Shown here: piece by piece, positions 28,743 through 50,691 of the stretch
How the letters are laid out: every line of letters starts with the position of its first letter
How positions within the stretch are numbered: position 1 is the first letter of the stretch
From: Natronobeatus ordinarius
GTDB lineage: Archaea; Halobacteriota; Halobacteria; Halobacteriales; Natrialbaceae
Direction: 5' to 3'
Length of the DNA stretch: 64,000 nucleotides
NCBI RefSeq assembly: GCF_024362485.1
Contig: NZ_CP101456.1
Span: 1,364,001 to 1,428,000 of the forward strand
Translations under genes and position numbers: made by a program
Notes under the pieces: generated by a model
Databases searched by the model: none
What the model saw: the letters and a program-made list of their open reading frames with translations, nothing else
Told to the model about the DNA's origin: nothing

Positions 28743-29823
28743 GCTCGCCCTACGACACCCATGCAAAAAACGACACGGTCATGCCGTGTCCCCTGTTTCC
28801 CTCGGTCGCGGTCGCGACCGACTGGCCGCGTGATGTGTCATCGGTCTTGCGGCCTGTCACCGTTTCGGGCCTCGATATATAAATGTGGGTGTCCGTACAC
28901 GTTCGTTTCTGCCGGTAGCTGTGGCGCTGGCGCGACTCAGAACGGGGCTCCGGTCGGGTCTCGACGGGGCTCCGGCCGGATCTCGACCGGCCTCCGGACA
29001 AGACTCGAGCGCCGAGCAGTCGCCTCGAGCGTCCAGGTGCCCGAACAGCGGGTGCCATTCTCGGTCACTGGTGGTGGACGTCGGGACGGTGTGCCTCGTC
29101 GGGCCGACTGGCGGACGCCAGATCAGATGTTTGAAAGCTGAGTGTATCCCAAAGTGGTCATCTAGATTGGATTAAGAGGTGGTGGCTACCCATCCGAGTC
29201 GAGAACGTCACTGAAGTCGGCTCGACGCGAGTAGGAGCCGTTACTCCTCGAGTTTCTGCCGTCTGGGGGTGATGGTGCCGGCCGACCGTCGGCGACCCGT
29301 TTCGACCGGTACCGATCGACGGGTTCCCGTACGTTCGTGATCGAATCAGGTTTAACTCCTGTCTGGGCGGATTTCTGACGTGGAACGCGTCGAACTGGGT
29401 TGCAGCAAGAACGGGCGGCCGAATCAACTATGGGCATATTCTATATATGTGTGTCTAAATTAGAACTCTGCGACGTTCACCGCCAGCCGGTCATCCCGTG
29501 TCGAGCCGGACGAGGGGGACGTCGGCGGCGGACGCGTCGAAGGTATTATCACGTCGCCACGGCGAGTGTCGACAATTGGAAGACGTGGATCGAATTCGAA
29601 CCCAGACGCATGTCGAGTCAGTACGCCCTCAGATCGGAACTGCACGACGGACGCCGGCCGCCTCGAGCAGCCTGTCCGACCACCCCGGAGCCTCGGGGTT
29701 CATGGGCGTGTACGATTCGTCACAGCGGCCTTCGGCACTGGTCGAATTCGTCAGCGGTGTGTCGACGGGCGTCGGAGAGCGCGCGCCCAAACCCTGCTGT
29801 GACACCGAGCGACGCGTGAGACG
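28743..29823. other. 1.08-kb stretch without a supported gene
   Basis: Open frames here have neither the acidic composition nor the codon pattern of the neighbours. A strong TATA-like GATATATAAATG at 28874-28885 points right. A 22-base unit is repeated in tandem at 28944-28987, and a GC hairpin GGCCGG-atctcga-CCGGCC lies at 28974-28992, so a small RNA from about 28905 is possible. A second AT-rich patch with CTATATATG is at about 29440-29450. The UbiD promoter must lie at the right end. Confidence 0.4.
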
Positions 29824-31326
29824 ATGACCGCCGAGACGTTCCGTGAGTTCCTGGCCCTGCTCGAGGACGCCGGGCAGCTGAACCGGATCGCCGACCGCGT
29901 CTCGTGGGACCTCGAAGCGAGCGCGATCACGGCGCTGGCCAACCAGACCGACGAGCGAATTCCCGCCTTCGAGCGGGTCGACGCCGGCATCGATGGCACC
30001 TGGCTCGTGGGCGACCCGTACCGAGGGCCGTGTCGCCGCCCTTGGGCACACCTCGCTCGCGCGTTCGAACTGCCGTCGGCGCTCCCGGGGCCAGCCTACT
30101 ACGAGGCGGTCGTCGAGCGGCTCCGCGAACCGTGCGAGCCGACCGTCGTCGACCCGGCGACGGCGCCGTGTAAGGAGGTCGTCCGGACGGGGGCGGACGC
30201 CAGCCTGCTCGAGTTCCCGTGGCCGTACGTTCACCAGGGTGACGGCGGCCGCTACGCCACGCTGAACACGCTCGTCGCACCGGACGCCGACAGCGAATGG
30301 GGCCGATGGTCGCGCCACCGCGCGATGATCCACGACGCCACGGGGGCGAGCCTGCTCTTTCTCGCCGGCGAGCAGGTCCCCAACCTCTACTACTACGAGT
30401 ACGAACGTCGCGACGAGCCGATGCCCGTCGCGCTCGTCCTCGGTGCGGGGCCGGCCGTCGAGTGCGCCGCGGAGATGTGGATTCCAGTCGGCAAGAGCGA
30501 GGCGGCGTTCGCGGGCGGCCTCCAGGAGTCGCCGGTCGACCTCGTCGCCTGCGAGACGAACGACCTCTACGTCCCGGCCTCGGCCGAGGTGGTGATCGAG
30601 GGTCGAGTCCGTCCCGGCGAACGGCTCGACGAAGGTCCCTACGGCGACTATTTCGGCTACGTGAACGGTCCCCGTCGCTCGATGCCAGCGCTCGAGGTCG
30701 ATGCGATCACCCACCGCCGGGCGCCGAGACTCCCCTTCTGCGTCGAGGGGACCGGCGTCGGCTACGGCCACAACTCCACGAGCACGCTCGAGGTCGCCGC
30801 CGGGGGCCCCGACGCCACCCTGGGCCTCCGGGCTGCCGGCTACGAGGTCGCGATGGCCGCGCCCTGGCCGTTCTCCTCGCGGACGGCCTGGACGATCGCC
30901 ACCGACCGGCCCTACCCCGGCTACCTCCACGAACTCGCGAACTTCGTATTCACGACGTGGGGAATGCTCCACATCGACTTCCTGATCTTCGTCGACGCGG
31001 ACGTGAACCCGCTCGATCCCCGGGCCGTCTTCGAGGCGATCGCGCTCCAGGCCGACCCGGCGACTGACTTCCACCAGTTCGGCGTCGAGCGAATGCCGAA
31101 GGTGCCGCTGAACATCTACCAGACGCCCGATGAGAAGGGGAGCGCCGACGTCGGCACGTCGAAGGCGAAGACGGCGAAAGCGCACGTCGACGCGCTGTCA
31201 GACGGTGACCGGCCGACGCAGACGATCGGCAGCCGCGCCTCGCGCGAGCGTGCCCGTAACCTCCTCGTCGAGGCGGGGATCACACCGGCGTTCGCTCGCG
31301 ACGACTCACCGGCGGTGGATCGATGA
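29824..31326 (+). CDS. UbiD-family prenylated-FMN decarboxylase
   Basis: A 500-residue UbiD-family enzyme. The key catalytic stretch is present as EGPYGDYFGY, giving Glu270 and, five positions on, Asp275 where fungal Fdc1 has Glu277 and Glu282. The segment GRWSRHRAMIHDATG provides the conserved arginine region. The C-terminal SKAKTAKAHVDALSDGDRP and Ala-rich helices match the oligomerisation part. Such enzymes reversibly (de)carboxylate aromatic or unsaturated acids with prenyl-FMN made by UbiX; no ubiX gene is in the window. It overlaps the next gene by 4 bases (ATGA). Confidence 0.9.
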   Translation: MTAETFREFLALLEDAGQLNRIADRVSWDLEASAITALANQTDERIPAFERVDAGIDGTWLVGDPYRGPCRRPWAHLARAFELPSALPGPAYYEAVVERLREPCEPTVVDPATAPCKEVVRTGADASLLEFPWPYVHQGDGGRYATLNTLVAPDADSEWGRWSRHRAMIHDATGASLLFLAGEQVPNLYYYEYERRDEPMPVALVLGAGPAVECAAEMWIPVGKSEAAFAGGLQESPVDLVACETNDLYVPASAEVVIEGRVRPGERLDEGPYGDYFGYVNGPRRSMPALEVDAITHRRAPRLPFCVEGTGVGYGHNSTSTLEVAAGGPDATLGLRAAGYEVAMAAPWPFSSRTAWTIATDRPYPGYLHELANFVFTTWGMLHIDFLIFVDADVNPLDPRAVFEAIALQADPATDFHQFGVERMPKVPLNIYQTPDEKGSADVGTSKAKTAKAHVDALSDGDRPTQTIGSRASRERARNLLVEAGITPAFARDDSPAVDR

Positions 31327-32711
31327 CCGCGTTTCGCACCCACCTCGAGTTTCTCCACCGAACCGACGACTGCCAGCGGCTCGAGCGGCCCGACTCGCCG
31401 TCGCCGCAGGTCGTCGCCGCCGAAGCGATGCGAGCCAACGGACCGGCGCTCGAGTTCACGCCGGCCGGCGGCGGGGTTGGCCTCGCGAGCGGCGTCTACG
31501 GCGGCGTCGACCAACTGGAACGCCGGAATCGGTATCCGTGGACGCGGCTGGGAATCGGGCTCGGCGTAGACCGCGATCCGGCTTACGTCGACGTCCTCGA
31601 GGAACTGATCGAACTCGGCGGGCGAGTCGACGACCGCGACGTTACGTACGTCCCGCGTGCCGCGTCGGCGACCGACCGCGGCCTCCGCGACCTCGAGTTA
31701 CCGACGCCGCCGGACGAGGCCTGGCCCCGTTTTACGCTGGGGCTCTGCTCGATCGGGAGCGACGACGGCTCGTACTGGGGGCCGATCCACGGCACCGTCC
31801 TCGACGGGGACACCGTTCGAGCCCGCGTCCCCGAAGCGCTCTCCGGGCAGCTGCGCAGGGGCGACGCGGTGACGATCGCACTCGGCGTCCCCGCGGCGGC
31901 GCTCGCGACCACGCACCTGCTCGCCGTCACCGACCGGCTCTCGACGCCGATCGAAGCCCGCGGCGTCGGCTCGACGGTCCCCGTCGTCCCGACCGCCGGC
32001 GGGGTCGTCCCCGGCTCCTCGGAGGTCGTCCTCGAGACGACCGTCGCGGCGCGCCAGCCCGAGACGCGCTCGGAGAAACGGGAGTTCTGGGAGCGCCTCG
32101 TCGACGCCACGACGCTCACGCTCGACGTCCGACACGTGTTCACTCGCGAGGATCCCGTCGTTCCGTTCACGCCCCTGGGAACGCCGCTGTCGGACGACCT
32201 CGGCCTCACGGCGCTGGCGATCGCGGCGCGACTCTACGAACGTGTGAACGGTTACTGGGGCGTCTCACCGGTCGAGTGGGTGTTGCTCCCTGCCGAGGGA
32301 CGGCTCGGGATCTGCCTCGTCGCGACCGAAGTGCTGTACCCCGGCTTCGAGTGGCAACTGGCGAACCTCCTCTTTTCGCTCTCTCGCTGTTTCGACACGG
32401 TCGTCGTCGTCGACGCCGAGGCGAGCCCGCGAGCGCTCGGCCGAGTCCTCGGCGACCTCTGGGTCAAAGCCCACCCCTCGCGAGACTGGCTGTTCAGTGA
32501 ACCCAACGCGCCAGCAGCCCGCATGCCGACGTACAGCCGAGACGACACCGGCGCTCGCCTCTACGTCGACGCGACGTGGGATCCTCGCTGGAAACCCGAG
32601 TTCGTCGCCCCTCGCGTCTCGGTTACAGACTCCTTCCCGCCCGAGATCCGCGACGCCGTCCTCGAGTCGTGGACCGACCTCGGGTTCGAGGACGAGCCGG
32701 ACGTCGCGTGA
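31323..32711 (+). CDS. divergent UbiD-like protein, catalytic motif lost
   Basis: A 462-residue UbiD-fold relative, coupled by an ATGA overlap to the true UbiD. Shared family features include the N-terminal FRTHLEFLHRTDDCQRL, the central EVVLET strand, and the late GFEWQLANLLFSLSRCFDTVVVVDAEA, which parallels the first protein's LANFVFTTWGMLHIDFLIFVDAD. Where the catalytic EGPYGD should lie, the sequence reads RQPETRSEKREFW, with no EGPxGE-like box. It is therefore probably not a decarboxylase by itself and may be a partner subunit. No exact characterised homologue is known to me. Confidence 0.72.
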   Translation: MTAFRTHLEFLHRTDDCQRLERPDSPSPQVVAAEAMRANGPALEFTPAGGGVGLASGVYGGVDQLERRNRYPWTRLGIGLGVDRDPAYVDVLEELIELGGRVDDRDVTYVPRAASATDRGLRDLELPTPPDEAWPRFTLGLCSIGSDDGSYWGPIHGTVLDGDTVRARVPEALSGQLRRGDAVTIALGVPAAALATTHLLAVTDRLSTPIEARGVGSTVPVVPTAGGVVPGSSEVVLETTVAARQPETRSEKREFWERLVDATTLTLDVRHVFTREDPVVPFTPLGTPLSDDLGLTALAIAARLYERVNGYWGVSPVEWVLLPAEGRLGICLVATEVLYPGFEWQLANLLFSLSRCFDTVVVVDAEASPRALGRVLGDLWVKAHPSRDWLFSEPNAPAARMPTYSRDDTGARLYVDATWDPRWKPEFVAPRVSVTDSFPPEIRDAVLESWTDLGFEDEPDVA

Positions 32712-33017
32712 GCGAGCCGGCCCCAGCGCTGCTCGACGCCGGAGCCGTGCTCATCGCGATCGGCCATGCTCGCCGATCGGCCGCCGTTCTGACGTTTACA
32801 ACACTGTTTACGCAAGACTGCGTCGGGGTGGGGTCAGATCCGGGGACGGGCGGTGGTTAATTCCCGGACGAATGCGGCGAAATTCACCGAAGTAGTTAAT
32901 ACTCGAGGGAGAACGTCCACGGATGTACGCTCTCGGCCCGGAGCACTGGGTGTCCCGGGAACAGGAGGTCGGCCCGGGGCACGGTCTGGCGGCCGAGACG
33001 ACGCAGAGCACACAGCC
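32712..33017 (+). promoter_or_regulatory. intergenic region and promoter of the acyl-CoA operon
   Basis: No gene is seen. GTTTAC occurs twice 13 bases apart in ACGTTTACAACACTGTTTAC (about 32793-32812), an AT-rich direct repeat that could be a regulator site. AGTTAATACTC at about 32893-32903 is a TATA-like element that would give a leader of about 90 bases before the ATG at 33018. Confidence 0.35.
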
Positions 33018-34184
33018 ATGAATTTCGAACCCTCACAGGAACGAGCGTTGATTCGATCGACGGCCGAAGAGGTGGCCGCCGAGTACGGACCGGAGCACTG
33101 GCGCGAGAAAGAACGGAAGGGGGAGTTCTCAGAGGCGTTCTGGGACGAACTCGCCGAGGCCGGCTTCCACGGCCTGCTGATCCCCGAGGAGTACGGCGGG
33201 GCGGGGATGGGCATGCAGGAGATGGGGCTGGCGATGGAGACCCTCTGTGCGGAAGGGTGTGGGATGGCCGGCACCTGGTACCTCGTGCTGACCGCGGGGA
33301 TGGCGGCCGTCGGCATCCGCGAGCACGGGACCGAGGAACAGAAAGAGACCTACCTGCCGGACATCGCCGACGGGAAGCGCAACTTCTCGATCGGGATCAC
33401 CGAACCCGACGCCGGGACGAACACGCTCAACGCGGCGACACGGGCCGAGAAGGACGGCGACGAGTACGTCATCAACGGACAGAAGGCGTGGATCACCTAC
33501 TCGGATCGCGCGGACAACATGGTCCTCGTGACGCGGACGACCCCGCGCGAGGACGTCAATCGGGGCACCGACGGGATCAGCCTGTTCATCATCGACATGG
33601 ACAGCCCCGGCATCGACGTCTCGCCGATCCCGAAACACGGCATCAACTACTCGAAGTCGTGTGAAGTGTTCTTCGAGGACGTCCGCGTCCCGAAGGAGAA
33701 CCTGCTCGGCACCGAGGACGACGGCTGGTGGGCGCTCGTCGACACGCTCAACCCCGAACGGATCGGCTTCGCCGCCGCCGGCACCGGCATCGGCAAGCTC
33801 GCGGCGAACACGGCGATCCAGTACGCCAACGACCGCGAGGTGTTCGACGCGCCGATCGGCTCCCACCAGGCCGTCTCGTTCCCCATCACGAAGGCGTACG
33901 CCCGGATGGAGGCGGCGGCGCTGATGCGCGAGAAGGCTGCCTGGCTCTACGACCGCGGCGAGGAGTGTGGCTACGAGACGAACGTCGCGAAGGCCACGGC
34001 CGTCGAGGCCGGCATCGAGGCCGTCAAGCAGTCGATGCAGGCCTTCGGCGGCTGGGGCTACGCCGAGGAGTACGACGTCGAGCGCTGGTGGCGTGAGATC
34101 AACCTCACCCGCCTCGCCCCCGTCTCCCAGCAGATGGCATACAACCACATCGCCCAGCAACTCGGCTTCCCGAAGTCTTACTGA
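33018..34184 (+). CDS. acyl-CoA dehydrogenase
   Basis: A 388-residue FAD-dependent acyl-CoA dehydrogenase. The start at 33018 ([20 protein letters not shown]) fits the family. The middle domain carries FAD-binding [12 protein letters not shown] and the strand [23 protein letters not shown]. The C-terminal helical domain holds [21 protein letters not shown], whose glutamates include the likely catalytic base. It makes a 2,3-double bond in an acyl-CoA; isovaleryl- or cyclic-type substrates are possible. It is the first gene of a four-gene operon with a carboxylase. Confidence 0.92.
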
Positions 34185-34186
34185 CC

Positions 34187-35974
<1,788 letters not shown>

Positions 35975-35978
35975 TCCC

Positions 35979-37727
35979 ATGGAACTGAGAGTGACCGAAT
36001 CCACGACGGACGAGGAGGCACAGGCGATCGCGGAGGCGCTTGCGTCGCACTTCGACGACGACGTCGAGCTCTACGCGGGTGACGGCGACGAGCCGGTCGC
36101 GAGCGCGTCGGCACCCGCGAGCGCGGGCGTGGCGTCCGCTAGCAACGGCGCCGGCAGCCGACCGAGCCCCGCCGACGACGACCTCGGGCCGACCGAACGC
36201 GAGGAGCTGCTGTGGACGGAGATCGAGGAGATCCTCGAGGGCGGCCCCGAGAAGTACAAAGCGCGCCTAGGCGAGCAGGGCAAGCTGTTCGTCCGCGACC
36301 GGCTCGATCTCTGGTTCGGCGAAGAGGGGCTCAAATTCGAAGACGGGAAGTTCGCTCACTTCGACGCCGAGGATCGGCTGCCTGCGGACGGCCTTCTGAC
36401 CGGTGCTGCGGAGTTCGAGGGCCGGGACGTCCACTTCATGGCCAACGACTTCTCCGTGAAGGCGGGGTCGATGGCCAAGCGCGGGGTCGAAAAATTCCTG
36501 CGGATGCAACAGCGGGCGCTCAAAACGGGCAAGCCCGTGCTGTACCTGATGGACTCCTCGGGCGGGCGGATCGACCAGCAGACGGGCTTCTTCGCCAACC
36601 GCGAGGGCATCGGGAAGTACTACTACAACCACTCGATGCTCTCGGGTCGCGTCCCCCAGATCTGCGTCCTCTACGGGCCGTGTATCGCCGGGGCCGCCTA
36701 CACGCCCGTCTTCGCCGACTTCACGATCATGGTCCGGGACATGTCCGCGATGGCGATCGCCAGCCCGCGGATGGTCCAGATGGTCACCGGCGAGGACATC
36801 TCGATGGACGACCTCGGCGGCCCCGACGTGCACGCCCAGCATTCGGGCAGCGCGGACCTCGTCGCCGAGGACGAAGAACACGCCCGCGAACTGGTCGCGA
36901 AGCTCATCGGCTATCTGCCCGACAACTGCGACGAGAAGCCCCCACGGACAGAGGGACGCGCCCCGCGGCTCTCCCCCGAGGGCATCGACGGCGTCATCCC
37001 CCAGGAGCCCAATCGCGGCTACGACATGTTCGACGTGATCGAGCGCGTCGTCGACGCCGACTCGGTGCTCGAGCTCCGTCCCGAGTACGGGAAAGAGATC
37101 GTCACGGCCTTCGCTCGCATCGACGGCCGACCGATCGGCATCGTCGCCAACCAGCCCAACCACCGGGCGGGCGCGATCTTCCCCGACGCCGCCGAGAAGG
37201 CCGCCCAGTTCATCTGGACCTGTGACGCCTACGGGATCCCCCTGCTCTACCTCTGTGACACGCCCGGCTTCATGGCCGGCTCGCAGGTCGAGAAAGACGG
37301 GATCCTAGAGCAGGGCAAGAAGATGATCTACGCGACCTCGAGCGCGACGGTCCCGAAACAGTCCGTCGTCGTGCGCAAGGCCTACGGCGCGGGCATCTAC
37401 GCCATGTCGGGGCCGGCGTACGATCCCGAGAGCATCATCGGGCTTCCGTCGGGAGAGATCGCCATCATGGGCCCCGAGGCGGCGATCAACGCCGTCTACG
37501 CGAACAAGCTGGCGGCGATCGAGGACGACGACGAGCGCGCGCAGATGGAACAGGAGTTACGCGAGGAGTACCGCGAGGACATCGACGTCCACCGGATGGC
37601 CAGCGAGGTCGTCATCGACGAGATCGTTCCCCCGAGCACCCTGCGCGAGGAGCTCGAGGCCCGCTTTGCGTTCTACGAGACCGTCGAGAAACAGCTGCCG
37701 AACAAGAAACACGGCACGATCCTCTGA
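35979..37727 (+). CDS. acyl-CoA carboxylase carboxyltransferase subunit with extra N-terminal domain
   Basis: A 582-residue carboxyltransferase of the crotonase-like beta family. The body (from about residue 75) has MDSSGGRIDQQTGFFANREG for the first oxyanion hole, YGPCIAGAAYTPVFADF, and the second CoA-binding half with DTPGFMAGSQVEKDG and RKAYGAGIYAMSG. The first ~38 residues (MELRVTESTTDEEAQAIAEA) form a separate short domain joined by an Ala/Ser linker, similar to the small epsilon/PccX helper subunits of actinobacterial and haloarchaeal acyl-CoA carboxylases. It lies 4 bases after the biotin subunit gene. Its acyl-CoA substrate is not determined. Confidence 0.9.
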   Translation: MELRVTESTTDEEAQAIAEALASHFDDDVELYAGDGDEPVASASAPASAGVASASNGAGSRPSPADDDLGPTEREELLWTEIEEILEGGPEKYKARLGEQGKLFVRDRLDLWFGEEGLKFEDGKFAHFDAEDRLPADGLLTGAAEFEGRDVHFMANDFSVKAGSMAKRGVEKFLRMQQRALKTGKPVLYLMDSSGGRIDQQTGFFANREGIGKYYYNHSMLSGRVPQICVLYGPCIAGAAYTPVFADFTIMVRDMSAMAIASPRMVQMVTGEDISMDDLGGPDVHAQHSGSADLVAEDEEHARELVAKLIGYLPDNCDEKPPRTEGRAPRLSPEGIDGVIPQEPNRGYDMFDVIERVVDADSVLELRPEYGKEIVTAFARIDGRPIGIVANQPNHRAGAIFPDAAEKAAQFIWTCDAYGIPLLYLCDTPGFMAGSQVEKDGILEQGKKMIYATSSATVPKQSVVVRKAYGAGIYAMSGPAYDPESIIGLPSGEIAIMGPEAAINAVYANKLAAIEDDDERAQMEQELREEYREDIDVHRMASEVVIDEIVPPSTLREELEARFAFYETVEKQLPNKKHGTIL

Positions 37728-37729
37728 CC

Positions 37730-38194
37730 ATGCCGGGGCTGTACTACGAAGAGTTTACGGTCGGCGAAACGATCGAGCACGAGCGCCGTCGCACGATCTC
37801 GGAGAGCGACAACCAGCGCTTCTGTGATATGACGATGAACCAGCAGCCGCTGCACTTAGACGCCGAGTTTGCGGCCGAGACGCCCTTCGGCGAGCGGCTG
37901 GTCAACGGCATCTACACGATGGCGCTGGCCGTCGGCATCACCATCCCGGAGACGACCGACGGCACCATCGTCGCCAACCTCTCGTACGACAACGTCGAGC
38001 ACCCCGAGCCGGTCTTCCACGGCGACACCATCCGCGTCCAGTCGACCGTGACTGACAAACGCGAGACGAGCGACGGCGAGCGCGGCGTCGTCACGATGCG
38101 CGTCGAGGTGTTCAAGATGAACGAGCCGGACGAACCGCTCGTCTGTTCGTTCGAGCGGACCGTCCTCTCGCTGAAGCGGCCGAACGGGGACTGA
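37730..38194 (+). CDS. MaoC-family acyl-CoA hydratase
   Basis: A 154-residue single hot-dog MaoC-like protein. The hydratase motif region reads ISESDNQRFCDMTMNQQPLHLDAEFA, with the Asp and His of the usual D-x(4)-H pattern visible as NQQPLHLD (the Asp is replaced by Gln-Gln), and GERLVNGIYTMAL follows. It starts 2 bases after the carboxyltransferase stop. In the operon it would hydrate the enoyl-CoA made after carboxylation, as in methylglutaconyl-CoA hydration, or act in another CoA pathway. The active-site change deserves checking. Confidence 0.85.
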   Translation: MPGLYYEEFTVGETIEHERRRTISESDNQRFCDMTMNQQPLHLDAEFAAETPFGERLVNGIYTMALAVGITIPETTDGTIVANLSYDNVEHPEPVFHGDTIRVQSTVTDKRETSDGERGVVTMRVEVFKMNEPDEPLVCSFERTVLSLKRPNGD

Positions 38195-41656: not shown

Positions 41657-41678
41657 GCCTACTGTATCTTCAGTAGGC
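41657..41678 (-). terminator. hairpin terminator at the end of the liv operon
   Basis: GCCTACTG-TATCTT-CAGTAGGC is a perfect 8-bp stem with a 6-base loop. It covers the last two codons and the stop of the permease gene, and on the minus strand a TTTT run follows at about 41650. The layout fits a Rho-independent-like archaeal stop for the long operon. Confidence 0.5.
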
Positions 41679-42707
41679 GTACGGCCATTTTCTGAAATAG
41701 TCTTTTATCTGCCCTAACGCCGCGAGGAGCCCCTTCGGCTCGACGGCGAGCACGATGATGATGACGACGCCGAAGAACACCGCGTCGATCGCCGCCGCGT
41801 CGGCCGCGTAGGCAGCGATGAAGTCACGGACGCCGCGCTCGAGCAGCGAGATGACGCTGACCCCGGTGATCACGCCCCAGACGCGGCCGATGCCGCCGAG
41901 CAGTAACATCACGTAGTGCTCGAGGGTCATGTCGATCGTGTAGTGGGTCGGATCGACGAAGCCGATGTAGTAGGCAAAGAGCGCCCCGGAGACGCCGATC
42001 ATGAAGCCGCCGATGGCGTACGCGAGCAGCTTGTTCCGGAAGACGTCGATGCCGAGGACGGCCGACGAGAGGTCGTTCTCGTGGATGCCGCGGAAGGTTC
42101 GGGCGATCCCCGTCCGGCTGAGGTTCAGCGTCAGGATGGCGAAGATCGCCATCACGAAGAACGCGAGGAAGTACTGTTCGGTGCGGGAGGCGATGGTGAG
42201 CGAGTCACCGATCAGCCCGATCTCGCGGGGCATCGACTGCTGGGTGCCGCCGTGGATCACCTCGTACCGGCCTCCCATCTCGAAGAACCACTCGGCGATG
42301 AACTGCAGCGCGAGCGTCGAGATGGCGATGTAAAAGCCCTTGACGCGCCAGGAGGGCAGTCCGAAGATCACGGCGACCATGGCGGTCAGCAGGCCGCCGA
42401 GGATCATCGCGGGGATCATCCCCGCGCCGAGTTCGGTTACCACCCTGACGGCGGTGTAGGCCCCGATCGCCATGAACGCTCCCTGGGCGAGGACGATCTC
42501 GCCCGCGTACCCCAGGATGACGTGCAGTCCCAGGACGGCGATGATCATGATGTAGATCCGCGTGATCGTCGACAGCATCCCGCCACTCACCACGAACGGG
42601 ATGAGAAACGGAATAGGGAGCGCGAGCACGAACGCGATACGTTCGATCCGCCAGCGGACGAGCCCCATCCGATCCTCGTAGGAGGTGAAGTACTCACCGC
42701 AGGGCAT
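41670..42707 (-). CDS. livM: branched-chain-type ABC permease LivM
   Basis: A 345-residue LivM-family permease with eight or more helices. GYAGEIVLAQGAFMAIGAY is the characteristic GxxGxxSLGHxAF region, and SRTGIARTFRGIHENDLSSAVLGID is the conserved cytoplasmic coupling loop. A shorter start at MGLVRW (42668) is possible. It pairs with LivH to form the membrane pore of the importer. It is the last gene of the operon. LivM family members take up branched amino acids, amides, urea or carboxylic acids. Confidence 0.9.
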   Translation of the reverse strand: MPCGEYFTSYEDRMGLVRWRIERIAFVLALPIPFLIPFVVSGGMLSTITRIYIMIIAVLGLHVILGYAGEIVLAQGAFMAIGAYTAVRVVTELGAGMIPAMILGGLLTAMVAVIFGLPSWRVKGFYIAISTLALQFIAEWFFEMGGRYEVIHGGTQQSMPREIGLIGDSLTIASRTEQYFLAFFVMAIFAILTLNLSRTGIARTFRGIHENDLSSAVLGIDVFRNKLLAYAIGGFMIGVSGALFAYYIGFVDPTHYTIDMTLEHYVMLLLGGIGRVWGVITGVSVISLLERGVRDFIAAYAADAAAIDAVFFGVVIIIVLAVEPKGLLAALGQIKDYFRKWPYAY

Positions 42708-42809
42708 CGGTCACCCCTCCGTCGGTCCGATCGGTACTGGTACTCGAGGTCGGTGCCTCGGTCGCGGGTCGTGCGGTCGTGTGTAAGGTCGTGGCTCTGT
42801 TTCTCATAG

Positions 42810-43724
42810 TTACAGTCGCTCGATACGTTCGGTTCCGAATAGGCCGTACGGCATGACGAGGATGACGACGACGAGCAGTAGCATCGGCAAGACTTCACCG
42901 AAGCCGGCGCCGACGACCGGTGCGACGTAGTAGTCGCCGACCTCCTGGAGGAGGCCGACGACGATCGCGCCGATGAACGCCCCGGGGATGCTGTCGAGCC
43001 CGCCGAAGACGACGGCCGCGAAGATGAGGATGCCGACGCCGTAGATCCCGAACGACGTCCCGCCCTGGGACATCGCGAGCAGGATCCCACCCACGGAGGT
43101 GATGGCGATCGAGATCGCCCACGAGAGGACGATCGTTCGCTCGATGGAGACGCCGAGCACCATCGCCGCCTGCTGGTCGCTCGAGCACGCCCGGAGGATC
43201 GATCCCATCACGGTGTACCGGAAGAAGGCCATCAGCGCGAGGACGACCACGAGCGAGAGGGCGACGCCCAGCGCGAACGAGGCGTTGAGGTCGACGCCGA
43301 ACAGCAGCGGCACGCTCCAGTCGAACTGGAGCGTCGCCGGGTACGCCCGGCTGTCACGACCGAAGAAGAACTGGATACCGCCGGTGATGATGCCACCGAG
43401 GGCGAGCGTGACGATGATCACCGACAGCACCGGTTCGCCGATGAAGTGTCTGAAGATCACCCGCTCGAGCACGACGCCGAGCAGCAGCCCGACGACGATC
43501 GTGACGACCACTGCGAGCGCGGCTGGCAGCTCGAGGAAGATGAGCGCCGGCGGCGCCAGGATGGCGACCAGGTACGCCCCGAGCAGGGCGAACTGTCCCT
43601 GGGCGAAGTTGAGCACGCCCGTCACCTTGTAAATGAGGACGAACCCCATCGCGACCAGTGAGTAGATCGCTCCGAGACCGAGTCCCCTGACGAAGACCTC
43701 GAAGAAGGTCGCGATGTTACTCAT
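42810..43724 (-). CDS. livH: branched-chain-type ABC permease LivH
   Basis: A 304-residue LivH-family permease. The N-terminal LGLGAIYSLVAMGFVLIYKVTGVLNFAQG motif region is present in order, as is GSILRACSSDQQAAMVLGVS and FGGLDSIPGAFIGAIVVGLLQ. The ATG at 43724 overlaps the end of the acyl-CoA synthetase gene by 8 bases; a GTG at 43733 is possible. Between it and livM, 42708-42809 shows no gene. It forms the second half of the membrane channel. Confidence 0.9.
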   Translation of the reverse strand: MSNIATFFEVFVRGLGLGAIYSLVAMGFVLIYKVTGVLNFAQGQFALLGAYLVAILAPPALIFLELPAALAVVVTIVVGLLLGVVLERVIFRHFIGEPVLSVIIVTLALGGIITGGIQFFFGRDSRAYPATLQFDWSVPLLFGVDLNASFALGVALSLVVVLALMAFFRYTVMGSILRACSSDQQAAMVLGVSIERTIVLSWAISIAITSVGGILLAMSQGGTSFGIYGVGILIFAAVVFGGLDSIPGAFIGAIVVGLLQEVGDYYVAPVVGAGFGEVLPMLLLVVVILVMPYGLFGTERIERL

Positions 43725-45768
43725 GGATCTCACCCTCGATGAGCTGCTCGAGCGATTCCCCGTCGTCGACGTCGATAACGCGCATCTCGCCGCGTTCGCG
43801 GGACTCCCTGCCGTCCTGATACGTGATGGTTACGTCCATTTCGATCGTCTCCTCGTCGCCGTAGATGCCGTCGATCAGCTCCTCGTACCGCTCGTTGACG
43901 ACCTCGCGACGGATCTTTCCGGTCCGCGTGAGTTCGCCGTCGTCGGCGTCGAACTCCTTGAAGAGGACGACGAAGCGCTCGAGCGGGTGCTCTAAGCGCT
44001 CGTTCGTCTCCTCGACGACGCCTCTGATGAGTTCCAGCACCTCGGGTTGCTGTGAGAGGTCCTGGTAGCCGGCGTACTGGATGTCTCGCTGGTCGGCCCA
44101 CTCGGCGACGTTCTCGTAGCGGATGTTGAGCACTGCTGTGAGGAACTCACGTCCTTCGCCGACGACGAGCGCCTCCTTGAGGTACGGGTTGAACTTCAGG
44201 CTCGTCTCGACGCTGATCGGGGCGACGGCCGTTCCGTCGGCGAGCTCTAACACGTCGTCCATCCGGTCGAACACCTTGACGTGGCCGTCCTCGGTGATCG
44301 CGCCGAAGTCGTCGGTGTGGAGCCACTCGCCGTCGAGCGCCTCCGCGGTCTTCTCGGGCTGGTTGTAGTAGCCCGAGGTGACGACTGGACCCCGGACGAC
44401 CAGCTCGCCTTCGGGCGTGATACCGACCTCGACGTTGGGGAACACCTCGCCGACGGTGTCGGCCTGGATATCCTCGTTGCGGTGCATCGTCACGAAGCCA
44501 CAGACCTCCGACTGCCCCCAGATCTGCTTGAGCGGAATCCCCAGGGCGTGGTAGTACTGGAAGTGTTCTTCGCCGAGGGGACCACCGCCGGTGTAGACGT
44601 TCTTCGCGCGCTTGAGGCCGATCTTGTCGAGGATCGGCCGGTAGGCGGCCCAGTAGGCGAGCCAGTGTTTGAAGCGCAGCGACGCCGGCGGCTCCTGGCC
44701 GCGCTTGTCGCCGCTGACGTACTCGGCGTACTCGTTGCCGATCGCCATCGCCTTCTCGTACACCCAGCGTTTGAGTCGCGTCGTGTTCTCGATCTTCGCT
44801 TTGATGTTTGCGACCCAGCCCTCGTAGCCGTTCGGCGAGGAGAAGATGATCTCCGGGCCGATCTCGCGCATGTCTTCGCTCTCGGTTTCGGGCTGTTCGG
44901 CGAAGTTCGCCGTCCAGCCACCGACGAACGCCGCGGCGATGAGGATCATCTGCTCGCCCACCCACGCCATTGGGAGGTACGAGAAGTAATCCGACCCCTT
45001 CGGGAGCGGATCGATCTCGATCGCGGCGTTCGCCAGGTTGAGGAAGTTGAAGTGGGTCAGCTGGACGCGCTTTGGCATCCCCGTCGTTCCCGACGTCGGC
45101 GACAGCATCGCCGGCGTGTTCGGGTCGACGTCCCGTACTCGCGCTTCGAAGTCGGCGTCGGTCACCTCGCCACCCGTCGAGCGCTCGCGACCGCGTTGCT
45201 CGAGTTCCTCGTAACTCACGACCGGCACGACGGTGTCGTCGTAGCGGAACATCCCCTTCGGGTCGCGGTAGACGATCGCCTCGAGCGACGGCGCCTGGTC
45301 GGCCACTGACAGCAGCTTGTCGACCATCTCCTGGTCCTCGGCGTAGGCGACTTTCGGCGAGAGGAGCTCGAGCTGGTTGCCGATCGCCTCCGGGAGCATG
45401 TCCTCGTAGTTCGGTGCCGCCATCCCACCCAGGGACTGGGCGGCCATCCACGACCACAGCTGATGAGGGCGGTTGTAGCCGATGGTAAAGAGAACGTCCT
45501 CCTCACCGAACTCGAGCGTCTCGAGGCCGAGTGCGAAGTGTTTCACCCGTTCGTAGTACTCCGTCCAGGTGAACTCCTGCCAGACGCCGTAGCGCTTCCA
45601 GCGGAGGGCGACCTCGTCGGGGTGTTCCTGAACGTGGTTCAACAGGATCTCCGGGAGGGCCTTGTCGTCGACGATCTCGACGTCGCCTTCCGGCGCCGAG
45701 GCGATCCGTTCGATCGTGAGCGTCCCGTCCAGTTCGACGTCGGGAACCTGCTCGTCCACCTCCGACAT
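43717..45768 (-). CDS. long-chain-type acyl-CoA synthetase (AMP-forming) within the liv operon
   Basis: A 683-residue adenylate-forming ligase. The P-loop is SPTSGTTGMPKRVQLTH, A5 is IWGQSEVCGF, A7 is WLHTDDFGAITEDG and A8 is DRMDDVLELADGTAVAP, with the C-terminal lysine in LTRTGKIRREVV. It is of the long-form acyl-CoA/aryl-CoA synthetase type. Its place between LivG and LivH genes is a known arrangement in bacterial importers of aromatic or fatty acids, so imported acid is probably activated to its CoA ester at the membrane. Substrate cannot be read from sequence. Confidence 0.9.
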   Translation of the reverse strand: MSEVDEQVPDVELDGTLTIERIASAPEGDVEIVDDKALPEILLNHVQEHPDEVALRWKRYGVWQEFTWTEYYERVKHFALGLETLEFGEEDVLFTIGYNRPHQLWSWMAAQSLGGMAAPNYEDMLPEAIGNQLELLSPKVAYAEDQEMVDKLLSVADQAPSLEAIVYRDPKGMFRYDDTVVPVVSYEELEQRGRERSTGGEVTDADFEARVRDVDPNTPAMLSPTSGTTGMPKRVQLTHFNFLNLANAAIEIDPLPKGSDYFSYLPMAWVGEQMILIAAAFVGGWTANFAEQPETESEDMREIGPEIIFSSPNGYEGWVANIKAKIENTTRLKRWVYEKAMAIGNEYAEYVSGDKRGQEPPASLRFKHWLAYWAAYRPILDKIGLKRAKNVYTGGGPLGEEHFQYYHALGIPLKQIWGQSEVCGFVTMHRNEDIQADTVGEVFPNVEVGITPEGELVVRGPVVTSGYYNQPEKTAEALDGEWLHTDDFGAITEDGHVKVFDRMDDVLELADGTAVAPISVETSLKFNPYLKEALVVGEGREFLTAVLNIRYENVAEWADQRDIQYAGYQDLSQQPEVLELIRGVVEETNERLEHPLERFVVLFKEFDADDGELTRTGKIRREVVNERYEELIDGIYGDEETIEMDVTITYQDGRESRERGEMRVIDVDDGESLEQLIEGEIHE

Positions 45769-46593
45769 TCAGTCCACCCCCGTGTAGATGTTCTGGACCT
45801 CCGGGTCGTCCGTCACCGCTTCGGGTTCACCTCGAGCGATGACGCCGCCTTTGTGCAGGACGATCATCCGCTCGGAGACGTCGGTGACGACCTCGAGGTC
45901 GTGTTCGATCATCACGAGCGTCAGCCCTTCGTCCTCGTGAAGGTCAGCGAGCAGCCGCACCATGTCGTACTTCTCGTCGAAGGTCAGGCCGCTCATCGCC
46001 TCGTCGAGTAACAAGACGTCGGGATCGAGCGCGAGCGAGCGCGCGAGGTCGACCCGCCGACGGATGCCAAGCGGCATGCTCGAGATCGGGCTGTGACGGT
46101 ACTCCCACAGCTCGAGGTAGTCGATGATCTCTTCGGCGCGACGCATGTTCTCCGCCTCGAGTCGGCGGGCCGGACCCAGGTACGTCAGCGCCTGCCACAG
46201 GGTCGGCCGCTCTTTGATCGAGAGGACGGTCATGATGTTCTCGACGGCGTCTTCCTCCTCGAACAGCTCGAGTCCCTGGAAGGTTCGTCCCAGGCCCTTT
46301 CGTGCTCGCCTGTACGCGGGATCGGGCGTGACGTCCTCGGCGTTGAAAAACACCTGGCCTCCCGGGTCCGGATCGTAGAAGCCGTTGAGGACGTTCAACA
46401 GCGTGGTTTTGCCGGCGCCGTTGGGCCCGACGATCGAAATCCACTCGCCTCGCTCGATGCCGATCGAGACGTCGTCGACGGCGGTGATCGCGCCGAACGT
46501 CTTCGTGACGTCTCGGCAGCCGAGGATCGCGTCCTCCGGATTCACGTAGGGCCCGGATCGCAGTTCGGGGTTCGGTGACTCTGATAAACTCAT
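45769..46593 (-). CDS. livG: branched-chain-type ABC ATPase LivG
   Basis: A 274-residue ATPase with Walker A VGPNGAGKTTLLN, the LivG-specific insert FNAEDVTPDPAYRRARKGLGRTFQ, and Walker B DVLLLDEAMSG. The ABC signature is SSMPLGIRRRVDLARSL, not LSGGQ, a variant seen in importers that have an acyl-CoA ligase in the operon. It ends directly before the acyl-CoA synthetase gene (0-base gap). It powers import together with LivF. Confidence 0.9.
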   Translation of the reverse strand: MSLSESPNPELRSGPYVNPEDAILGCRDVTKTFGAITAVDDVSIGIERGEWISIVGPNGAGKTTLLNVLNGFYDPDPGGQVFFNAEDVTPDPAYRRARKGLGRTFQGLELFEEEDAVENIMTVLSIKERPTLWQALTYLGPARRLEAENMRRAEEIIDYLELWEYRHSPISSMPLGIRRRVDLARSLALDPDVLLLDEAMSGLTFDEKYDMVRLLADLHEDEGLTLVMIEHDLEVVTDVSERMIVLHKGGVIARGEPEAVTDDPEVQNIYTGVD

Positions 46594-46606
46594 GAATACT
46601 GTCGTG

Positions 46607-47431
46607 TTACGTCCACCGCTTGCGGATCTTGTAGTGTCGAATGTCCGAATACCTGCTCTCCTCGCTGCTCGTTCCCAGGTAGAACTCCTTGATCTCCTCG
46701 CGCTGGGTGAGTACGTCCGCGGGGTCGTGGAGCTCGATCTGGCCGTTCTCCAGCACGTAGCCGTAGTCGGCGATCTCGAGCGTCCGTTTTGCGTTCTGGT
46801 CGGCGATGATCATCGTGATGTCCTGCTCGCGGTTGATCTCTCTGAGCGTCTCGAAGATGTCCTGGACCAGCTTCGGGGCGAGCCCCAGCGACGGCTCGTC
46901 GAGCAACAGCAGCTTCGGCTTGTGGATCAGCGCCCGGGCGATGACGAGCATCTGCTGTTCCCCGCCGCTGGTGTAGCCCGCCTGCACGTCGAGGAGGTCC
47001 TCGAGCTGGGGGAAGTACTCGAAGGCGAGTTCGTAGTCCGACTTGTCGTAACGCACCCGTCGCCCGCCACGGTACAGTCCACACCGCAGGTTCTCCTCGA
47101 CGGTCAGGTCGGGGAAGGTCCGTCGTCCCTCGAGGATGTGGGTGACGCCTCTGTCGACCATCTCGTTGGTGCTGGCGTTCGTCACGTCGTCGCCCTCGAA
47201 GTAGACCGAGCCGCGGCTGACCTCGCCGCGTTCGGTGAGCCCGATGCCGGAGATCATCTTCAGGATCGTCGACTTCCCGGCGCCGTTCGGGCCGAGGAGT
47301 GCGACGATGTCGCCACGCTCGGCTTCCATCGAGACGCCCTGCACCGCCAGGAAGTGGCGATCGTAGACGATCTCTGCGTTGTCGAGTTCGACGACCGGGA
47401 CGTCAGCGAGGGACTCCTGTTCTGCGCTCAT
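46607..47431 (-). CDS. livF: branched-chain-type ABC ATPase LivF
   Basis: A 274-residue ATPase with Walker A LLGPNGAGKSTILK, signature TSGGEQQMLVIARAL, and Walker B LLLLDEPSLGLAP. The ATG at 47431 sits one base after the binding-protein stop; an upstream in-frame ATG at 47452 would overlap that gene by 20 bases and is less likely. It lies 13 bases before livG. It forms the heterodimeric motor with LivG. Confidence 0.9.
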   Translation of the reverse strand: MSAEQESLADVPVVELDNAEIVYDRHFLAVQGVSMEAERGDIVALLGPNGAGKSTILKMISGIGLTERGEVSRGSVYFEGDDVTNASTNEMVDRGVTHILEGRRTFPDLTVEENLRCGLYRGGRRVRYDKSDYELAFEYFPQLEDLLDVQAGYTSGGEQQMLVIARALIHKPKLLLLDEPSLGLAPKLVQDIFETLREINREQDITMIIADQNAKRTLEIADYGYVLENGQIELHDPADVLTQREEIKEFYLGTSSEESRYSDIRHYKIRKRWT

Positions 47432-47432
47432 A

Positions 47433-48692
47433 TTATTCGGGGAGCCAGTCATCCCGGCGCTCGAGTTCGACTGCGCCGTCGTGGACCAGTTCGCCGTTCT
47501 GGACCTCGAACATCTGGCCGGTCATCGTCGCCCGGCGGTCGTCTTCTTCGAAGTTCAGCGGTTGGGGGAGCAGCCCCTCGCCGTCGAAGCCCTCGAGTTC
47601 GAAGAACGCCTCGCGCACGTCCGCACCGGAGTGGGGGTCGTTGCCCATCTCCTGGGCCAGCTTGATCCCCTCGATGGCCAGCGCCGCGTGGGTGACGCCG
47701 CGGACGTAGTTGAGGTTCGCGTCCTCCGGATCATCCATGTCGCGACCCTCGCGTTCGAACGACTCCTCGATGATCTGGGCACCGCGGGCGTCCAACGCCA
47801 GCGCCTCGTCCCACGTGACGTTCGCGTTCACGTACCTGGCGCCCTCGAACAGCTCCGGGAACTCCGCAACGCGGAACTCGTCGACCGTCCAGGTGAGCCC
47901 CATCACGGTGATATCGGCCCCACGCTGGTCGATCGCCTGGAGGAGCACCCGCATCGGATCGGCGGTGTTCTGGTGGATGAGGTAGTCGACGCCGTTATTC
48001 TCGGCGCGTTGCACCTGCGTTCCCGCATCACCTTCGTCGAGCTCGAGGGTGATGTTGTCCTCGAGGTCGAGGCCGAGCTCCTCGGCGTACGCCTCGCCGC
48101 CAGGGATCGGTGATTCACCGAAGGCAGTCGTGTTGTGGATGAACGCGACCGTCGCGTCGGGGTCGTTGTCGGCGATCCATTGCAGGTGCGCACGCGCCTG
48201 ACTGGTGTAGTCGAGGTTGGTGTAGAAGTTGTACTGGGTTTCCGAGCCCAGCAGTGCGTCGCTGTAGGACGCCGAGATGTAGACCACCTCGTCGAAGTGG
48301 GCGTCGTTGGCGAGCGCCTCGGTGTCGGCCGTCCCCCAGCCGATGATGACGGGCGGGAAGTCGTCGGCCGTGTGTCCGGAGTACTGCTGCTGGGCCTCGT
48401 CGACCTCGTAGGCGTAGTCCTGCCAGTCGTGAATAATCTCTTCGTCGAGTTCGTCGTTCTCGTTGTACCACGCGATCGCGTCACGGGAACCGAGGCCCGT
48501 GGGCCGGCCGACGTCGGCCGTCCCGCCACTCAGGTCGTAGATGCCGGGGACCCGGATCCCCTCTTCGTCGTCGCCACCCATGCAACCCGCGAGTGCCATT
48601 CCGGCCGTCGCGGCGGCGACCCCGCCGGTGCTGCGCAGGAATCGGCGGCGGCTGTGCGTTACCCTTTCATAGCTGTTGTCAGCATCCCTCAT
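47433..48692 (-). CDS. ABC transporter substrate-binding lipoprotein (Liv-type)
   Basis: A 419-residue periplasm-facing binding protein. The N-terminus has a Tat motif (SRRRFLRSTGG, arginines 15-17) followed by the lipobox LAGC with Cys37, so it is exported folded and lipid-anchored, as is usual in haloarchaea. The mature part has the two-lobed Liv fold (VPGIYDLSGGTADVGRPTGLG, ISASYSDALLGSE, NYVRGVTHAALAIEG). It gives the system its specificity. It is the first gene of the six-gene operon. Confidence 0.92.
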   Translation of the reverse strand: MRDADNSYERVTHSRRRFLRSTGGVAAATAGMALAGCMGGDDEEGIRVPGIYDLSGGTADVGRPTGLGSRDAIAWYNENDELDEEIIHDWQDYAYEVDEAQQQYSGHTADDFPPVIIGWGTADTEALANDAHFDEVVYISASYSDALLGSETQYNFYTNLDYTSQARAHLQWIADNDPDATVAFIHNTTAFGESPIPGGEAYAEELGLDLEDNITLELDEGDAGTQVQRAENNGVDYLIHQNTADPMRVLLQAIDQRGADITVMGLTWTVDEFRVAEFPELFEGARYVNANVTWDEALALDARGAQIIEESFEREGRDMDDPEDANLNYVRGVTHAALAIEGIKLAQEMGNDPHSGADVREAFFELEGFDGEGLLPQPLNFEEDDRRATMTGQMFEVQNGELVHDGAVELERRDDWLPE

Positions 48693-48718
48693 GCTAGTAC
48701 ACCCCTCACAAATACCCC

Positions 48719-48732
48719 AATATTATTTAAAT
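48719..48732 (-). promoter_or_regulatory. AT-rich promoter element of the liv operon
   Basis: ATTTAAATAATATT on the minus strand (complement of 48719-48732) lies 27 to 40 bases before the ATG at 48692, a clear TATA-type element for leaderless transcription. The IclR gene ends 119 bases upstream; an IclR site would be expected in 48733-48851, but I see no convincing palindrome. Confidence 0.55.
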
Positions 48733-48851
48733 CATTTGGTCGACTTGAGGGGAACGGGGAGGAGACAGTAGCTCCTTAATGATCGTCGTACCGTCACAGC
48801 GTGTGTACTGTCGGACACGAGTAGCAGCCCCAGGTGAGTATGGCGGCCCCG

Positions 48852-49610
48852 TCAGGAGTAATCGAGGTTCACCTGAACGACGTTCGCCGACCGCTGCACC
48901 GCCCTGGCGACCTCCTCGAGACTCTCCTCGTCGTCGATCCGGTACGATGGGCTACAGACGCAGACCGATGCACGAACCTCGTCGTTCATGTCGAGTACCG
49001 GCGCGGCGATACAGGTCATCCCCGACATTCGTTCGCCGTCGTCGATGGCGTACCCTCGTTCGCGGGTCCGCTCGAGTTCTTCGTACAGTTCGTCCCGGTC
49101 GGTGATCGTGTTCTTCGTCATCCGCTCGAGCCCGTGCTGGTCGAGAATCGCGTCGACGCGTGCGTGTGGCAACTCTGCCAGAATGGCCTTCCCCGGCGCG
49201 ACGGTGTGCAGCGGCATGCGCACGCCCCGGAACGCGTCGATGTTGATCGCCTCCTCGCCCTCGTCGAGGCTGATCAACACGCCGAGCCCGTTCTCCTCGA
49301 TCATGAGGCTGATGTGTTCGCCCGTCGTCGCCGCGAGCTTCGGGAGTTCGGACTCGGCGGCTCGCACGACGGCCATCCGCTGGCGCCGCCGCTCGCCGAT
49401 CTCGAGGAACTTCGTACTCGGGCGGTACTCGAGGTCGTCACGAACGACGAATCCGGTCTGGGTGAGTGAATTGAGGTAGTTGTGTGCGGTACTGACGGGC
49501 AGATCGAGCTCGGTAGCCAGATCGGACGCCGTTAGCCCGCCGTGTCTCGACAACGACTCGACGATCTCGAACGCCTTGACCACGGATTTGATGGTCCCAT
49601 CGTCGTCCAT
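48852..49610 (-). CDS. IclR-family transcriptional regulator
   Basis: A 252-residue regulator. The N-terminal winged HTH reads IKSVVKAFEIVESLSRHGGLTASDLATELDLPVSTAHNYLNSL in order (residues about 5-47), and the C-terminal IclR effector domain includes VAPGKAILAELPHA and GMTCIAAPVLDMNDEVRASVCV. The start at 49610 (MDDDGTIKSVV) fits the family; the longer open frame upstream does not. It lies directly upstream of the liv operon on the same strand, so it probably controls it in response to a carboxylic acid. Confidence 0.88.
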   Translation of the reverse strand: MDDDGTIKSVVKAFEIVESLSRHGGLTASDLATELDLPVSTAHNYLNSLTQTGFVVRDDLEYRPSTKFLEIGERRRQRMAVVRAAESELPKLAATTGEHISLMIEENGLGVLISLDEGEEAINIDAFRGVRMPLHTVAPGKAILAELPHARVDAILDQHGLERMTKNTITDRDELYEELERTRERGYAIDDGERMSGMTCIAAPVLDMNDEVRASVCVCSPSYRIDDEESLEEVARAVQRSANVVQVNLDYS

Positions 49611-50691
49611 GGCACACCTTGTGAACGCGACCCACATGATACTTTCGGCTATACTGAATTTTGAACGGTCCCTCATTCGGCCACGGGGTGTGAAGATCGG
49701 TCGAGAACGACGCCACAGAGCTGACTGCTGGCGGCCACACCGCAGCACTCCGGCGGTTTCACCGGGAAGCCGCGACTGACGTCCCTGAACACGTTCTCGA
49801 TAGCCGGTCCCACGATGCTGAAACCAAATACCATGAATGTTCGTGGCAAATTCACTAACCCTGGAATCAAATTTCTTCGAATCGGCGCATACGAAGCTAT
49901 CACCTACTTTGCTCTTGAGTATGCGCTCCAGTAATTAGAAAACGGGTCGGGAGTTTATGCCAACCCGAATCCGACAATGCTGAAACAGGGGTCAATTACA
50001 GCCGTATGGCTGTAACGTAGCGTTCCGGCAGGGCTACTGTCAGAGCTGTTGAGACGCCGGGATATCGTCGCTACTGCGACCGGATATCTGCTACCGACTG
50101 GGCGGCGAAACTGACCGCAAGCGAGGTTGTGTCCCCGAATCGAACGCCGATCTGGACGACGCCACAGCGCTGGTGTACGAGGGACCGACTCCCCCGCAGA
50201 CATTCACTCAAAATTACGAGTGGTTGCTAATCCTATCATTTCTTATACTATATTTGAATCGCATAGAAATTCGAGTTCCGACGGTACTCGCTTGCCACCA
50301 GCAGGCTACCTGCGCGTGCGATCTCGTCCGACTACCTCGATCCCGTCCGACTTCAACACTACCCCCCGATTCCGGCCGAGAAGCCGCGGTAGCGGTCGAT
50401 AATCTCCGTATTCTGCACCTCTTCCCGTTCGTGGACATCCACCCGTTCGAGCCCACTGGGCTCTCGCTTGCTGTCGCTCAATTCCAGTGGTGAGAAGGAG
50501 GGTTTGAGTAGTGTTGCATCTATTTTCCGCACCAAACCATAATCTTTAGTAGCTGTCTTCCTATCGGGTAGTTCTTCTAGCCGGTCAGGATCCAAACGGT
50601 GACGATCACTTGGAAACGACCCAGGAACGGACGGCTACACCCGCGATCGGTTACAAATTATAAGTGAGCAACGCGCGAAGGTGGCGGTGCT
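49611..50691. other. 1.08-kb low-GC intergenic region with remnants
   Basis: No conventional gene is supported. The DNA is visibly more AT-rich than its surroundings. A 78-codon minus-strand frame at 50359-50595 (MDPDRLEELPDRKTATKDYG) has non-haloarchaeal codon use and no recognised family; at best it is a foreign remnant. A perfect palindromic hairpin lies at 49996-50015. TATA-like sequence at 50655-50663 belongs to the next gene. The region looks like decayed accessory DNA. Confidence 0.4.
49996..50015. repeat. hairpin resembling an IS200/IS605-type end
   Basis: TTACAGCC-GTAT-GGCTGTAA is a perfect 8-bp stem with a 4-base loop in the degenerate intergenic DNA. Sub-terminal hairpins of this type mark IS200/IS605 ends and the palindrome-associated elements known in haloarchaea. 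No transposase is nearby. Its identity is not proven. Confidence 0.35.

Follow-up and report, generated by a model that had tools for sequence, protein, structure and literature searches.

A UbiD-family gene coupled to a homologue without the catalytic motif in haloarchaea, nearly all of which lack a detectable UbiX

UbiD enzymes are described as prFMN enzymes fed by UbiX, which is thought to make their prenylated FMN cofactor. HudA/PA0254 and Fdc1, prFMN enzymes and the solved structures closest to the proteins described here, are dimers of one kind of subunit (PMC8379154). However, UbiD enzymes with more than one kind of subunit are known. The phenylphosphate carboxylase PpcA/PpcB of Thauera aromatica and the phenylphosphoamidate carboxylase of Desulfatiglans anilini each need two UbiD-like subunits, and for the second the authors state that FMN suffices and that the UbiX-like protein is found only in phenol-grown cells (PMC7500099). 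The naphthalene carboxylase of culture N47, which acts in anaerobic hydrocarbon carboxylation, has four UbiD-like genes in the cluster of a ~750 kDa complex (PMC12016498). The vanillate decarboxylase VdcCD is a UbiD that needs a second subunit for activity, VdcD, a small zinc-ribbon protein with four Cys that does not have a UbiD fold (PMC8379154). As an analogy only, since the enzyme is unrelated, the AdoMet decarboxylase of trypanosomes forms a complex with its dead paralogue, prozyme, which activates it (PMC5201418).

Here we analyzed a 64,000-nucleotide stretch of Natronobeatus ordinarius (contig NZ_CP101456.1, positions 1,364,001 to 1,428,000; hereafter the window). An earlier note had pointed to a UbiD decarboxylase gene joined by a 4-base overlap to the gene of a UbiD-like partner without the catalytic box, and had proposed a heteromeric enzyme with one inactive or regulatory subunit. 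The paired genes, the overlap and the missing motif are all confirmed. The interpretation is supported only in part: a non-catalytic partner is the simplest reading, but that the two proteins form a complex remains an inference, and the note overstated how unusual a heteromeric UbiD would be. It also missed a third gene, a second pair in the same genome and the absence of UbiX.

An obligate pair with one motif-less member

The features of the locus, in window coordinates, are the following; the four genes after p2 were identified by Pfam.

29824..31326 (+): p1, catalytic UbiD-family protein, 500 aa, with the R166-E270-D275 triad
31323..32711 (+): p2, UbiD-fold protein (fold inferred from a profile and a predicted model) without the catalytic motif, 462 aa
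31323..31326 (+): ATGA overlap of the stop of p1 and the start of p2
30631..30648 (+): codons of EGPYGD in p1 (E270-D275)
32046..32093 (+): codons around ARQPETRSEKREFWE in p2, the place of the lost acid-base pair
29400..29823 (+): place where the third gene, orf0, stands in 66 of 66 other loci; no orf0 detectable here
32946..34184 (+): acyl-CoA dehydrogenase
34187..35974 (+): biotin carboxylase with biotin carrier domain
35979..37727 (+): acyl-CoA carboxyltransferase
37730..38194 (+): MaoC-type enoyl-CoA hydratase

p1 matches Pfam UbiD_N, UbiD (PF01977, 202.3 bits against a cut-off of 23.3) and UbiD_C, while p2 matches only UbiD_C. Aligned with HudA and Fdc1, p1 has the catalytic Arg-Glu-Asp (R166, E270, D275), fitting the RXnEX4(E/D) motif (PMC5818171), whereas p2 has ARQPETRSEKREFW at the place of EGPYGD and also lacks part of the segment that carries HudA His188. 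We extended this comparison to 68 pairs: all 68 first proteins keep R166, E226, E270 and D275, and none of the 68 second proteins has the motif, nor any E[GST]PxG[DE] that could represent an active UbiD with a shifted motif. In an alignment of 28 p2 sequences, W256-E257 is invariant at the old catalytic place.

To test whether p2 is still a UbiD by fold, we built a profile from 28 relatives of p2. It matched HudA over positions 3-459 of 468 at E 2e-18, and among the 28 members UbiD_C was found in 28, UbiD_N in 16 and UbiD in 4. The AlphaFold model of p2 (mean pLDDT 74, weak after about residue 280) aligned with HudA at Z 29.0 over 302 residues with an rmsd of 3.1, in agreement with the claim of the note that p2 has the fold features; the p1 model (pLDDT 66) was too poor to be searched. 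Of the 50 residues invariant in the 68 p2 sequences, 40 lie after residue 290, in the C-terminal domain, which forms the dimer in HudA (PMC3650080). In 11 chosen locus pairs dN/dS was 0.07-0.26 for p2 and 0.05-0.32 for p1. Hence p2 is under purifying selection and, although it has lost the motif and much of the cofactor pocket, the possibility that it is a decaying duplicate without function is refuted by the selection test. p2 is annotated as a UbiD family decarboxylase in public records, which is probably wrong.

The genome carries a second pair at C1:1207149-1210045 (contig C1, minus strand; L008:9150-12046 in our set of extracted loci) with the same 4-base overlap, beside a Liv-type transporter, a CoA ligase and a thiolase, all three named by eye. 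Next we searched 100 relatives. p2 occurred in 27 genomes and a close p1 (58% identity or more) in the same 27; all 27 testable pairs overlapped by exactly 4 bases, the 28th being broken by contig ends. A scan of 84,980 species, whose two seed patterns favour close relatives, found 66 named loci, all haloarchaeal by their titles, the nearest p2 homologue being that of Natribaculum breve (78% identical). All 66, and the own second pair, have p1 directly upstream. Of these 67, 57 have the 4-base overlap, 5 overlap by 1 base, and 5 gave other or no start distances with our crude start calling. The arrangement is far more than chance. Thus two outcomes that the note had set beforehand as refuting, intact catalytic residues in p2 or p2 occurring alone in many genomes, were both looked for and not found.

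In a sample of 392 genomes of the phylum, 21 haloarchaea and two others matched p2. One of the two, a genome of another archaeal family (G324), holds a tandem UbiD pair (L147:5462-8667), and served as outgroup pair in a tree from which one locus, L153, taken as the same gene as L065, and a fragment, L157, were left out. p1 and p2 each formed one clade, p2 on a long branch; the first member of the outgroup pair joins p1 (support 95/91) and the second lies on the p2 side of a 100/99 branch. This second member has lost only part of the triad, keeping the first Glu but having Gly for the second acid (EGPFTG), an intermediate. The pair is therefore probably older than haloarchaea.

We next asked whether the pair could be a haloarchaeal enzyme of the PpcA/PpcB kind, since p1 and p2 have weak hits to both models. 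p1 scored 143 bits against a cut-off of 565 for the alpha model and p2 18.7 bits against 469 for beta (TIGR02723 / TIGR02724), and p2 is no closer to beta (18.7) than to alpha (22.6) or VdcC (35.0). We therefore rejected this identity as very unlikely.

A third gene, orf0

A gene of about 165 aa, orf0, stands directly upstream of p1 in 66 of 66 named loci; counting the own second pair, it overlaps p1 by 4 bases in 30 of 67. In the 100 relatives it is in exactly the 27 genomes of the pair, and in the phylum sample in exactly the same 21 haloarchaea. It matched no Pfam or NCBIfam family convincingly (the best, Imm33-like, at E 0.0017 in 2 of 26 members), its profile found nothing among PDB sequences, and it is annotated 'hypothetical protein' in Haloterrigena turkmenica (HTUR_RS20415) and Haloarcula sinaiiensis (KDQ40_RS16770). 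In contrast to VdcD, 26 orf0 sequences show no conserved Cys. No ribbon-helix-helix family appeared among 25 of the 29 Pfam families for these 26 members; however, positions about 105-154 of the profile weakly matched (E 2e-4 to 1e-3) ORFs of mostly 58-59 aa in 9 genomes of one family in the phylum sample, and the two of these ORFs that were scanned are RHH_1 proteins, so the C-terminus of orf0 may be ribbon-helix-helix-like.

In the genome under study neither pair is linked to an intact orf0. The window's pair has none beside it, the second pair has a decayed one (44 bits, C-terminus missing), and the only intact copy lies unlinked at C1:470486-470971 (L146:9475-9981). That it persists unlinked suggests that it acts in trans.

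Absence of UbiX and a model for the pair

Next we searched for UbiX as the expected partner of p1. TIGR00421 found UbiX over cut-off in 13 of the 100 relatives, none of them among the 27 pair genomes; these 13 are exactly the genomes that held a UbiD other than the pair. Fisher's test gave 8e-11 by genome and 9e-7 by genus, not corrected for kinship. The only PF02441 protein of the window's genome is CoaBC-like. We then took 50 of the 66 named loci, leaving out 13 as apparently from relatives already tested and 3 others (L124, L125, L130); one of the 50 (L084) dropped out, so that 49 further pair genomes were searched. In 47 the only PF02441 match lies in a frame of 385-541 aa, of CoaBC length. 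The other two, Natrinema gelatinilyticum (L163) and Halobellus rufus (L162), have a second match of 188-195 aa that reads as UbiX (named by eye, since only PF02441 was scanned), and they are the only ones of the 49 with extra, ordinary UbiDs, 2-7 kb away. UbiX is thus missing from 74 of 76 pair genomes, taking the 27 and the 49 as different genomes, which is itself inferred. UbiX goes with other UbiDs and not with this pair, although these profile searches used assemblies that may be incomplete, an unrelated flavin prenyltransferase would not be seen by them, and the outgroup genome G324 has UbiX besides its tandem pair and another UbiD.

We first considered that loss of metal ligands in p1 argued for a different cofactor. 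Of the metal and cofactor-phosphate site of HudA (S165, H188, E229; PMC3650080), E229 is kept as E226 in 68 of 68 p1, H188 is Q184 in 68 of 68, and the S165/Asn place (R161) is D30 R18 S9 T5 H4 N1 Q1. However, the site also varies between HudA and E. coli UbiD (PMC3650080), and a p1-like protein of the UbiX-bearing outgroup has Gln at the same place, which makes this argument weak.

We propose, as the reading we consider more likely than not, that p1 and p2 are the catalytic and the non-catalytic subunit of one heteromeric UbiD-type (de)carboxylase, made together by translational coupling and independent of canonical UbiX. In this view p1 would bind the flavin and carry the triad; p2 would keep the UbiD fold, above all the C-terminal domain that forms UbiD dimers, but, having lost the acid-base pair and part of the cofactor pocket, would probably act as a structural or activating subunit; and orf0 would belong to the system and could act in trans, as regulator or accessory protein. 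The enzyme would serve CoA-linked acid catabolism. What our analysis shows is the obligate pairing, the loss of the motif, the selection on p2, the co-occurrence and the absence of detectable UbiX, whereas the complex, the roles of p2 and orf0, the cofactor and the substrate class are inferred. Obligate adjacency also fits two enzymes of one pathway, and heteromeric UbiDs need not have a dead subunit. Indeed, p2 could be a separate enzyme, or a substrate- or cofactor-binding protein, co-translated with p1 but not part of one complex. Its own invariant set, including W256-E257 and many Trp/Tyr residues in the C-terminal domain, is more than a mere scaffold may need, and the long p2 branch points the same way. 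We consider this unlikely, because the nearly constant 1-4 base overlap and the lack of any p2 without p1 are typical of subunits, and because the UbiD dimer domain is what is best kept.

Two readings of the missing UbiX, neither of which we favour beyond a tentative level, can be put forward. In a variant of the model, the enzyme uses ordinary prFMN made by a flavin prenyltransferase unrelated to UbiX, or too divergent to be seen, and p2 and orf0 have no cofactor role. The complete triad and the metal ligand E226 in 68 of 68 p1 speak for this possibility, while the PF02441 results speak against it, and no candidate enzyme is known. Alternatively, this may be a UbiD-type (de)carboxylase that works without prenylated FMN, p1 using plain FMN or another cofactor and p2, perhaps with orf0, supplying what the prenyl group or the second acid supplies elsewhere. 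It would be a UbiX-independent branch of the UbiD family, so far seen in haloarchaea. Among open-licence PMC papers we found nothing on haloarchaeal UbiD pairs, and nothing on a UbiD working without UbiX other than the D. anilini study (PMC7500099). While enzymes with two UbiD-like subunits are already known, the homologue without the motif, the scores far below cut-off with the models of both Ppc subunits and an orf0 that matches no curated family set this pair apart from PpcA/PpcB and the D. anilini enzyme. A widespread lineage that keeps the UbiD triad but lacks UbiX in 74 of 76 genomes, the more surprising part of our results, raises the testable question of whether a UbiD can work without prFMN or whether there is a second flavin prenyltransferase, and the obligate dead homologue is a natural test of what the second UbiD-like subunit does in multi-subunit carboxylases.

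Gene neighbourhoods

To see which pathways the pair may serve, we compared 68 neighbourhoods, with genes called by a crude rule, so that the counts are lower bounds. Clade A (37, including the window) has biotin carboxylase in 36, carboxyltransferase in 35, acyl-CoA ligase in 31, acyl-CoA dehydrogenase in 29 and MaoC in 25. Clade B (31), to which the second pair of this genome belongs, has PaaA/PaaC-type genes in 29 and a PaaD-like gene in 25, neither of which appears in clade A; H. turkmenica shows these phenylacetate degradation genes by name. Catabolism of CoA-activated aromatic or unsaturated acids is the natural class, as inferred from the neighbours alone.

Elsewhere in the window, positions 41670-49748 hold branched-chain-amino-acid-type ABC transporter genes (named by eye) with a ligase and an IclR regulator whose closest NCBIfam models are BhcR and PcaR, likely for uptake of an organic acid. 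Positions 55228-59187 (-) encode a 1319-aa protein with a long Gln/Ala repeat region and a C-terminal EPEPPEE repeat, and the ORFs at 3411-4409 and 5837-7180 look by eye like transposases of insertion elements.
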